A stretch of DNA of 64,000 bases from Sedimentimonas flavescens (lineage in GTDB: Bacteria > Pseudomonadota > Alphaproteobacteria > Rhodobacterales > Rhodobacteraceae): assembly GCF_019264375.1 (NCBI RefSeq), contig NZ_JAHVAI010000002.1:62001-126000 (forward strand), given 5' to 3'. How positions within the stretch are numbered: the stretch's first letter is position 1; each line of letters begins with the position of its first letter. Under the pieces are notes generated by a model. That model made no database searches. It was not told the DNA's origin and saw nothing but the letters and a program-made list of their open reading frames with translations. Below are positions 44,566 through 50,326 of this stretch, one piece after another. A program made the translations under genes and the position numbers.

Positions 44566-44994
44566 ATGAGCGATACCGACCTGTTCAAACTCTATTCGTC
44601 GCGCATCCTCGCGCTGGCGGCGGATATCCCGCATACCGAACCCCTGCCCGCGCCCACCCACAAGGCCAACCGCCGCGCGCCGCTTTGCGGCTCGACGGTC
44701 ACGGTGGAGCTGACTTTCGACGGCACCCGCATCACCGGATACAGCCAGCAGGTTCACGCCTGCGCGCTTGGGCAGGCCTCGGCCTCGATCTTTGGTGCCA
44801 ATGTCATCGGGCGCTCGCCGGCCGAGGTTGAGCGCCTGCGCGATGAGTTGGCAGCGATGCTCAAGGGTGGCCCGGTGCCCTCCGCCCCCTTCGCCGATTA
44901 CGAAGTTCTGCTTGCGGCGCGCGATTACTCCAATCGCCACGCGTCGATCCTGCTTGCTCCGCAGGCAACGCTCGACGCCCTGAACGCGGGTTAA
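44566..44994 (+). CDS. NifU/IscU-like iron-sulfur scaffold family protein
   Basis: A 142-residue protein with the NifU_N fold pattern: [19 protein letters not shown], then [15 protein letters not shown], the two conserved cysteines being in LCGS and ACAL. The usual third region is weak. Relatives are Fe-S cluster scaffolds, but this alphaproteobacterial branch is rarely studied. ATG 44566 was chosen as the start of the conserved part. The terminator that follows is oriented for the opposite strand. Confidence 0.8.
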
Positions 44995-45023
44995 AAAAAC
45001 GCCGCCATCCGGGGATGGCGGCG
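44993..45023 (-). terminator. Strong intrinsic terminator for the 40-aa gene
   Basis: On the minus strand CGCCGCCATCC-CC-GGATGGCGGCG, an 11 bp arm pair, is followed directly by TTTTTTT. It lies about 100 nt past the stop of the 40-codon gene and overlaps the stop of the opposite NifU-like gene. The plus strand has no T-run, so it serves the minus strand. Confidence 0.85.
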
Positions 45024-45124
45024 CGAGGAAGCGCTTTCCGGGCGAAATAGCCCGTATCGACAGGCAGGCCGCGTGTTTGGGGACAGGGCGGCAGCGAAAA
45101 GCGCGAGGCAGTAGCGGTTGGGCC

Positions 45125-45247
45125 TCAGAACAGACCCGGAATGAAGAGAACGCCAAGGAACGTGATGCAAAGCGACATCGCGCCCAGTGCATCATGCAGA
45201 AGGCCGTTCGAATGACGTTTGAAAATTGCTTGAACTTCGCGGCGCAT
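45125..45247 (-). CDS. 40-aa small membrane protein, probable SOS-regulated
   Basis: A short gene too small for usual cut-offs. It encodes 40 residues: a basic N terminus (MRREVQAIFKRHSN), then one hydrophobic segment (ALGAMSLCITFLGVLFIPGL, about 20-39) and a final Phe. The Shine-Dalgarno AAGGAGG sits 6 nt before ATG 45245-45247, one of the best in the window. A perfect GTTC-N7-GTTC repeat lies 59-73 nt upstream, and a strong terminator follows about 100 nt after the stop. The unit stands alone downstream of recG. Function unknown; the layout resembles SOS-induced single-span inhibitors. Confidence 0.72.
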   Translation of the reverse strand: MRREVQAIFKRHSNGLLHDALGAMSLCITFLGVLFIPGLF

Positions 45248-45305
45248 TCGGAACCTCCTTCTCCGTTGTTGCTATTTTGTTCTCATTTTTTCAGCGCGAA
45301 GTAAA

Positions 45306-45320
45306 GAACTTTTTAAGAAC
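45306..45320 (-). promoter_or_regulatory. LexA-type SOS box (GTTC-N7-GTTC)
   Basis: On the minus strand GTTCTTAAAAAGTTC is a perfect direct repeat with 7 bp spacing (GAAC-N7-GAAC on plus), the LexA recognition form known for Rhodobacter and other alphaproteobacteria. It lies between the recG stop and the 40-aa gene, pointing at the latter. The -10 box is not clear. Confidence 0.65.
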
Positions 45321-45326
45321 ATCTGT

Positions 45327-49612
<4,286 letters not shown>

Positions 49613-50326
49613 TCAGGCGCCCACCGCCAATCGCTGAGCCATGATCGCCGGTGCCGGATCACGCAGCACATAGCCGCGGCCCCAGACCGTCTCGATGTAA
49701 TTCTCGCCGCCCGTCACCTCAGCCAGTTTCTTACGCAGCTTGCAGATGAACACGTCGATGATCTTCAATTCCGGCTCATCCATGCCGCCGTAGAGATGGT
49801 TGAGGAACATCTCTTTCGTCAGGGTCGTGCCCTTGCGCAGGCTGAGCAGTTCGAGCATCTGATATTCCTTACCGGTCAGGTGGACGGGCTTGCCCTCCCC
49901 CTCGACCGTCTTCGCGTCAAGGTTCACCGCGATCTTGCCCGTACGGATGATCGACTGCGAATGCCCCTTGGAGCGGCGAATGATCGCATGGATTCGCGCG
50001 ATCAGTTCTTCGCGATGGAACGGCTTGGTCATGTAGTCATCTGCGCCGAAGCCAAAACCCTTGATCTTGCTGTCGGTGTCATCTGCCCCGCTCAGGATCA
50101 GGATTGGCGTATCCACGCGGGCCAAACGCAGCTGGCGCAACACCTCATGCCCGTTCATGTCGGGCAGATTGAGATCGAGCAGGATCAGGTCGTAATCATA
50201 GAGCTTCGCCAGATCGATCCCTTCTTCACCCAGGTCGGTGCAGTAGACGTTTAGATTGGCATGGGTCAGCATCAATTCGATACTACGCGAGGTTGTAGGA
50301 TCATCCTCGACCAACAAAATGCGCAT
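49613..50326 (-). CDS. ctrA: Cell-cycle master response regulator CtrA
   Basis: A 237-residue OmpR-type regulator. Its receiver domain has Asp51 in [16 protein letters not shown] and the C-terminal winged helix contains [31 protein letters not shown], nearly the Caulobacter CtrA sequence. In Caulobacter it controls cell-cycle genes and silences the origin; in Rhodobacterales it mainly controls motility and gene-transfer-agent genes and is often non-essential. The upstream 95 bp gap to sciP holds CtrA-box-like repeats, suggesting autoregulation. Confidence 0.97.

Follow-up and report, generated by a model that had tools for sequence, protein, structure and literature searches.

A LexA-box unit next to recG in Rhodobacteraceae combines a conserved gene for a small predicted membrane protein with a conserved structured 3′ RNA

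In a 64,000-nucleotide stretch of the Sedimentimonas flavescens genome (family Rhodobacteraceae; contig NZ_JAHVAI010000002.1, positions 62,001 to 126,000; the whole stretch is called the window here), we analyzed an SOS-type unit that spans window positions 44993 to 45320 on the minus strand, as delimited from the sequence, the list of open reading frames (ORFs), and their translation. Comparison with related genomes showed that the unit, its promoter, the reading frame of a 40-amino-acid (aa) protein, and an RNA structure behind that frame are conserved. We consider it probable that the unit is a LexA-controlled transcript giving rise to a small inner-membrane checkpoint protein and a probable regulatory RNA, and we infer both functions. 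The sequence comparisons strongly support a real, widespread gene for a predicted small membrane protein in a stand-alone LexA-controlled unit, and covariation strongly supports a conserved structured RNA between its stop codon and its terminator. From its placement in the sequence, the RNA domain should be on the same SOS transcript as the ORF. An initial annotation of this DNA had proposed a DNA damage-induced small membrane protein; the stand-alone LexA-controlled unit with a real ORF was borne out by comparison, while the unit as described there was incomplete, the conserved 3′ RNA having been overlooked.

Four features had been read directly from the letters, namely, a perfect GTTC-N7-GTTC box ahead of a 40-codon ORF, a strong AAGGAGG Shine-Dalgarno sequence, a single hydrophobic span, and a terminator with seven T's, and each of them was present (the best 19-residue Kyte-Doolittle mean of the span was 2.09). 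In window coordinates, the layout was as follows.

45306 to 45320, minus strand: perfect LexA box GTTC-N7-GTTC, GTTCTTAAAAAGTTC, 6 bp past the end of the recG ORF
45300 to 45305, minus strand: −35-like hexamer TTTACT, immediately 3′ of the right half-site (putative −35 element)
45268 to 45282, minus strand: second, inverted LexA-like site with 7 of 8 consensus bases, GAACAAAATAGCAAC (putative LexA binding)
45254 to 45260, minus strand: Shine-Dalgarno sequence AAGGAGG (from the sequence)
45125 to 45247, minus strand: ATG-initiated ORF for a 40-aa predicted single-span membrane protein (P0001), MRREVQAIFKRHSNGLLHDALGAMSLCITFLGVLFIPGLF (from the ORF list and translation)
45024 to 45112, minus strand: structured 3′ RNA domain in its genus-level form (covariance model R3)
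45096 to 45104, minus strand: 5′ arm of the closing stem, GCGCTTTTC (stem present in every genus fold shown, and R3 match)
45031 to 45039, minus strand: 3′ arm of the closing stem, GGAAAGCGC (genus folds and R3 match)
45079 to 45086, minus strand: CU-rich motif CTGTCCCC in hairpin 1 (folds and motif count)
45059 to 45067, minus strand: CU-rich motif CTGCCTGTC (folds and motif count)
44993 to 45024, minus strand: intrinsic terminator, an 11-pair GC-rich hairpin followed by seven T's (from the sequence)
45327 to 47441, minus strand: recG, the usual upstream neighbor of the unit (NCBIfam RecG)

We compared 107 loci from as many different genomes, all picked by the score of their ORF and thus not a random sample; six repeats from the same genomes were dropped. 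In 106 of the 107 loci, a perfect box lay no more than 200 bp from the start codon, at a distance of 53 to 95 bp upstream, and the exception (L003) was one base off. Control patterns in the same loci were absent or rare (reversed CTTG-N7-CTTG, 0/107; GTTC-N8-GTTC, 0/107; GAAC-N7-GAAC, 6/107). GTTC-N6-GTTC occurred in 82 of 107 loci, which we read as an extra half-site 10 bp upstream and not as a failed control: when the loci were aligned on the box, extra GTTC half-sites stood at −10 in 78/106 and at −20 in 26/106. The end of recG lay 73 to 315 bp upstream in 101 of the 107 loci; in five of the others (L003, L004, L104, L120, and L126), recG was not seen next to the unit in the DNA covered, and in L081 the gap was 623 bp. 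The initial annotation had named, as a check on its claim, whether the ORF and the repeat upstream of it are kept after recG in relatives, and these counts show that they are. Taken jointly, the box, its position, and the ORF lie far beyond what chance would give. Of the loci in which recG was not seen next to the unit, L004 is close to a contig end, and L004, L104, L120, and L126 keep a perfect box.

The conserved promoter region extends beyond the box. TTTACA or TTTACT followed directly 3′ of it in 79 of the 106 aligned loci, a 17-bp spacer separated the −35-like hexamer from GAACA in 90/106, and GAAC-N7-CAAC, an inverted site that starts with this GAACA and is one base off the LexA consensus, was present in 91/106. 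The off-consensus C of the inverted site is itself conserved, so this site may serve something other than LexA. The window copy lacks the extra half-site at −10 but has the second site and, ahead of it, the box, TTTACT, and the 17-bp spacer; GAACAA of the second site lies 17 bp after the hexamer, where a −10 element is expected. The composite pattern GTTCTTKAC-N10-20-GAACAAA had a single occurrence in this genome. A consensus promoter scan of both strands from 44850 to 45500 gave no match, and the same scan also missed the unit's own promoter. Farther downstream, Shine-Dalgarno-like matches in the other loci comprised 3 to 8 bases.

GTTCN7GTTC is the LexA box reported for Caulobacter (PMC4211646, PMC12700426), and in the window's genome the same perfect box precedes lexA, recA, uvrA, and pcrA/uvrD (identified from partial proteins by the top NCBIfam match). 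The lexA promoter (L054) has two overlapping boxes, which give three GAAC half-sites in steps of 11 bp a short way ahead of the start, and the recA promoter (L072) has two facing LexA-like sites, GTTC-N7-GTGC and GAAC-N7-GAAC, which resemble the paired sites of the unit. These come from 20 chosen stretches and do not amount to a complete regulon. One stretch (L067) had no box; the other 19 surrounded box matches selected mainly for their spacer or position, and most of these boxes had no obvious SOS gene behind them. Together, these observations are strong sequence evidence for LexA control of the unit. In the main text of a paper on LexA in D. shibae (PMC6473078), the word recG is absent. Among the stretches read, a gene of the PA0069 family of radical SAM proteins (L055) has a perfect box some 12 bp ahead of the start listed for it and is a possible further SOS gene.

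GTTC repeats could instead be used by another regulator, such as CtrA, an explanation that we regard as most improbable. The CtrA half-site is TTAA, with which the spacer of the box starts in some loci, that of the window among them, and ctrA belongs to the same gene cluster. However, TTAA is not kept (at one of its positions C has a frequency of 0.56 versus 0.39 for T) while all eight GTTC bases are, and the same box stands ahead of lexA, recA, uvrA, and pcrA/uvrD and matches the box reported for Caulobacter LexA. CtrA was rejected as the owner of the box on the grounds of the unkept TTAA and the boxes at SOS genes.

Next, we looked into the distribution of the protein. Searching with the 40-aa sequence alone gave matches in 26 of 61 genomes, comprising 18/18 of the genus (the window's own genome included), 8/19 from other genera of the family, and 0/24 from outside the family. 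Profile A1, made from 18 of the sequences so found, matched 264 of 296 Rhodobacteraceae genomes, a set with approximately one genome for each genus; five genomes gave two matches each. The broader profile A2 (47 rows) matched 116 of 121 genomes drawn at the level of the order, all of which were assigned to a single family, and across 387 genomes of the class its strong matches were six family members only, with no credible homologue in other families. Three further class-level matches of A2 (E values of 0.003 to 0.01) lay inside frames of 245 to 908 aa and were judged to be chance. Nine loci came from named relatives, including Sinirhodobacter hankyongi, S. ferrireducens, Rhodobacter sp. TJ_12, and Defluviimonas nitratireducens. 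The unit was also carried by a metagenome bin titled Sphingomonadales (AU13.004, L146), whose title is probably wrong; the matching genome G012 was placed in the window's genus.

The reading frame itself is conserved. ORF length was 38 to 45 codons in all 107 loci and exactly 40 in 90 of them; a D/E-x-x-G/S motif preceded the membrane span in 106/107, a proline fell within the last six residues in 105/107, and a hydrophobic stretch above 1.6 (Kyte-Doolittle) was present in 106/107 proteins. The pooled ratio of nonsynonymous to synonymous changes (pN/pS) was 0.66 in the annotated frame versus 0.97 and 1.47 when the frame was shifted (1,049 nonindependent pairs), and it was 0.12 to 0.37 in the five closest pairs. 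An unconserved frame, which would have spoken against the claim of a small protein, was thus looked for, and the claim stands.

In sequence, the protein has a short N-terminal segment with a median charge of +1 and one strongly hydrophobic span toward its C-terminal end, a combination that fits a cytoplasmic N terminus. The window protein had no match in Pfam, NCBIfam, PHROGs, or PADLOC; 47 family members gave one stray match per family library (E values of 0.003 to 0.005), and the best match in the PDB, at an E value of 0.59, was no relative. With regard to SulA (PF03846), P0001 had no Pfam match, and the profile was found in 0 of 41 genomes, 25 of them Rhodobacteraceae, with a positive E. 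coli control.

Known SOS peptides of such a build inhibit division or another envelope process, and for this reason an inhibitor of that kind is our first guess for the function of the protein. In Caulobacter, SidA (29 aa) is SOS induced and interacts with FtsW, DidA (71 aa) is damage induced and linked to FtsN (PMC4211646, PMC12700426), and loss of lexA leads to filaments through sidA (PMC12700426). Like these proteins as they are described, the window protein is tiny and predicted to be in the membrane, and its GTTC-N7-GTTC box is the one used by LexA in Caulobacter, the likeness being one of description and not of compared sequences; it differs in its length of 40 aa, its D-x-x-G motif, its LPGLF-like C-terminal end, and the conserved RNA that follows it. 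The analogy to SidA, drawn in the initial annotation, is one of design only (a LexA box, tiny size, and one membrane span) and is a plausible guess.

TisB, a LexA-controlled single-span peptide, can likewise be compared to the window protein, and a depolarizing or dormancy peptide of the TisB/DinQ kind, under LexA control and with its translation restrained by the RNA domain, is an alternative that we find unlikely. DinQ of E. coli is described as having the same design, with LexA operators over the promoter of a short single-span peptide, but it is restrained by a separate antisense RNA (PMC3567139), whereas the conserved RNA here should be part of the same transcript as the ORF. The slightly amphipathic N-terminal segment (moment of 0.386 versus 0.252 in shuffles, but with a median P value of only 0.12) speaks for this alternative. 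Against it, toxins are usually patchy in their spread, whereas this gene is present in 264/296 genomes, only five of which gave a second match.

We then considered the roughly 100 nucleotides (nt) between the stop codon and the terminator, which are similar across genera though not coding. A run of at least five T's followed in 99 of the 107 loci. From the 96 loci with a recognized T run and a 3′ region of 120 to 240 nt, 95 RNAs, trimmed to start at a TGCC motif, were used for a fold test. A whole-family alignment of these 96 regions (MAFFT and RNAalifold) showed no RNA structure beyond the terminator; a seed was therefore built from eight similar sequences. Many single-sequence folds across different genera shared a common shape in which a long closing stem, hairpins, and the terminator accompany an unpaired CTGCCTG. 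Three hairpins within one closing stem formed the minimum-energy fold in 54 of the 95 cores versus 204 of 1,900 dinucleotide shuffles, and the median fold energy z-score of the cores was −2.53 (range, −5.76 to 1.09).

Covariance model R1, seeded with eight genomes, was searched against 100 sources and matched 58 of them at an E value of ≤0.1 (8 being the seeds), always on the sense strand and 1 to 110 nt past the ORF. In its alignment, 31 of 32 pairs showed two-sided changes and 91.1% of cells were paired versus 69.9% when shuffled; the covariation score was 0.427, compared to 0.137 for shuffled and 0.05 to 0.08 for slid structures. The second-round model R2, run on another 100 sources (27 left over or extra sources were scanned separately), gave 83 matches at an E value of ≤1, of which 81 were correctly placed and two (E values of 0.43 and 0.54) were chance; in the 83-row alignment, 90.4% of cells were paired versus 65.8% when shuffled, with a covariation score of 0.457 versus 0.139. 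Rfam 15 gave no match at gathering score in 10 loci; its near-matches, ncS025 and anti-hemB, were far below their gathering scores and were rejected (the window region reached at best 22 bits against a gathering score of 46). Where recG was not seen adjoining the unit, the ORF and the RNA were still together in four of five loci (L003, L004, L104, and L120), which argues for one working unit.

In the window's genus, the RNA domain takes a form composed of an unpaired ACUGCCUC, the closing stem, hairpins, and CU-rich motifs. The stem of hairpin 1 is formed by 45088 to 45092 paired with 45068 to 45072, and the CTG of CTGTCCCC is paired in the window's own minimum-energy fold. Covariance model R3, built from 10 other genomes with the window excluded, found the window copy at 45024 to 45112 with 66.6 bits (E value = 1.9 × 10−13), two further matches in the window (E values of 0.65 to 0.68) being chance, and on the whole genome of the window it gave one match (E value = 6.7 × 10−12). 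Across whole genomes, R3 detected the element in 18 of the 18 genomes of the genus (10 of them seeds), with one extra weak match in G004, and gave two weak matches (E values of 0.05 to 0.07) in 23 other genomes. Between the window and its sister genome L002, a paired C-G is exchanged for U-A in hairpin 1.

The RNAs share a short motif, CUG(C/U)C(C/U) (CUGYCY). Counted in 93 of the 95 RNAs (two shorter than 60 nt were dropped), it occurred 3.12 times per RNA versus 0.56 in shuffles, where one per RNA is due to selection, since the trimming to TGCC ensures one motif each; 71 of the 93 had it at least three times. Its probability of being unpaired was 0.74 versus 0.39 in shuffles. Stems that compensate for changes, together with motifs that stay constant and are mostly single stranded, suggest that the RNA pairs with further RNAs or is bound by a protein.

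The nearest precedent for such an RNA is DinR of Klebsiella, which is reported to be cut from the LexA-controlled dinI mRNA and to repress ftsZ after damage (PMC10907235). The two systems are alike in that an mRNA for a small protein, under LexA control that is predicted here, has at its 3′ end, in Klebsiella, a regulatory RNA and, here, a structured RNA with a terminator; they differ in that DinI (83 aa) affects RecA filaments (PMC10907235), whereas the protein here is a predicted membrane peptide. DinR is moreover described as specific to Klebsiella and as pairing through a stretch before its terminator, in contrast to the multi-hairpin domain found here across much of a family. Two alphaproteobacterial RNAs were ruled out as the identity of this RNA because they come from different loci: Pos19 of the relative Rhodobacter sphaeroides, a small RNA that is coding and contains a short ORF (PMC5036791), and EcpR1 of Sinorhizobium, which is stress induced and tied to cell cycle control yet is noncoding, lies downstream of divK-pleD, and is conserved in Rhizobiales, with LexA unmentioned in the text of its description (PMC4414408).

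We thus propose the following course of events, in which we infer LexA binding, induction, translation, membrane topology, inhibition of division, and action of the RNA in trans. Before damage, LexA would sit on the perfect box, and probably also on the second, inverted site, and would cover the −35 and −10 elements. After damage, RecA filaments would cause LexA to cleave itself, releasing a transcript of about 275 nt that would run from a predicted start just past recG to its own terminator. The 5′ part would be translated into the 40-aa protein, with a short, mostly positive, cytoplasmic N-terminal segment and a single membrane helix that terminates in a conserved PGLF-like tail; this protein may serve as a checkpoint inhibitor, holding back division or some other envelope process in the manner of SidA, DidA, YneA, and SosA. 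The 3′ part would form a multi-hairpin RNA with several CUGYCY motifs, mostly in loops, and may act in trans as an mRNA-derived small RNA, as DinR does in Klebsiella.

Several observations weigh against this reading. The box alone is at chance level, with 1 match in the 64-kb window versus 1.36 expected from shuffles and 104 GTTC-N7-GTTC matches in the whole genome versus 94 for the reversed control pattern, and the case was therefore made by comparison. The median pN/pS was 0.51, with values above 1 in some divergent pairs. The alignments used for covariation were fitted to the model, which favors structure, and the 83 rows of the second include the two chance matches, the shuffles and slides being the guard against this. 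R2 found no match in 19 of its 100 sources, nine of which belong to the window's genus and are seeds or matches of the genus model; in whole family genomes searched with strict filters, it matched 37/100 at an E value of ≤0.01, once each. The other ten of the 19 gave no RNA match in any search made (L049, L053, L080, L081, L084, L091, L095, L098, L126, and L128), and one of these, L126, also has no adjoining recG. The window's RNA is a shorter form and is matched weakly by the family model R2 (18.5 bits, E value = 0.22), and the covariation score within the genus was uninformative (0.081 versus 0.078 for shuffles) because the stem hardly varies. As to targets of the RNA, complementarity of the loops to the ribosome sites of recA was promising in this genome but is not kept, GGGAC being present in only 7 of 30 sites (one of the 30 starts was clearly misplaced), and the ctrA leader showed no complementarity; both candidates were rejected. 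Lastly, 15 of the 20 family genomes that were examined for want of an A1 match do have recG.

Part of this evidence bears on whether the RNA acts beyond its own message. The unit and the protein could be real and the 3′ structure do no more than protect or terminate its own mRNA or tune translation in cis, which we think rather unlikely. Structured 3′ ends often stabilize mRNAs, and the RNA here begins 1 to 110 nt past the stop codon in the loci matched. Of the 37 R2 matches in whole genomes, 34 lie beside a listed ORF position (none was listed for the other three), and neither recA nor ctrA provided a conserved target. A stabilizer, however, needs no conserved loops, whereas here CUGYCY is kept at about three per RNA and mostly unpaired, on stems that compensate.

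The genomes without an A1 match (32 in the family, the 20 examined being those listed) were informative about which part of the unit persists. In 8 of the 15 with recG, that gene is directly followed by a short ORF that is hydrophobic, bears a D/E-x-(L/I)-G motif, and is clearly a diverged form of the ORF; two more have a looser ORF, four have no such ORF, and one is doubtful. A perfect box follows recG in 8 of the 15. The RNA model gave one clear match among the 15 (L158, E value = 0.0005), the others being at an E value of 0.13 or weaker. It is quite improbable, in our view, that function resides in the conserved RNA and that the ORF serves only as a short leader: the RNA structure is strongly supported, but ORF length, frame, and motif are kept over many genera, and the diverged ORF is present in 8 of these 15 genomes versus one clear match of the RNA model. 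The search for recG in the remaining five of the 20 genomes matched only frames of 1,163 to 1,180 aa in four, which are probably Mfd and not recG, and nothing in one; in these genomes (G031, G067, G095, G129, and G180), the unit and recG may be jointly missing or unassembled.

In the window, the unit is the last element of a one-strand cluster with the order ctrA (49613 to 50326), ligA (47414 to 49543), recG (45327 to 47441), and the SOS unit, and a cell cycle master regulator and repair genes thus adjoin it (45327 to 50326). On its other side, a convergent ORF resembling SufU ends within the T tract of the unit's terminator (44990 to 44999).

In the open-access literature, judged on titles and the starts of abstracts, we recognized no description of this gene or RNA, nor did we recognize a paper on an SOS division inhibitor of Rhodobacteraceae. 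The unit is a precise candidate for such an inhibitor, being conserved, tiny, and matchless in the family libraries searched, in a large and mainly aquatic family (Rhodobacter, Dinoroseobacter, and the marine roseobacters) that includes model phototrophs and is abundant in the sea. The conserved 3′ RNA makes it more interesting than first described, and any explanation of the unit must include that RNA. If the RNA acts in trans, one SOS promoter would yield a protein arm and an RNA arm, so that one damage signal would set off two regulators. A bolder version, which we put forward only tentatively, is a two-armed, family-wide checkpoint in which the 40-aa protein would inhibit division and the RNA would act in trans through its approximately three CUGYCY loops to silence mRNAs for division or repair. 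If true, the unit would represent an ancient SOS RNA with two functions, the clade-wide equivalent of the one-genus DinR, and the missing SOS division brake of the Rhodobacteraceae.

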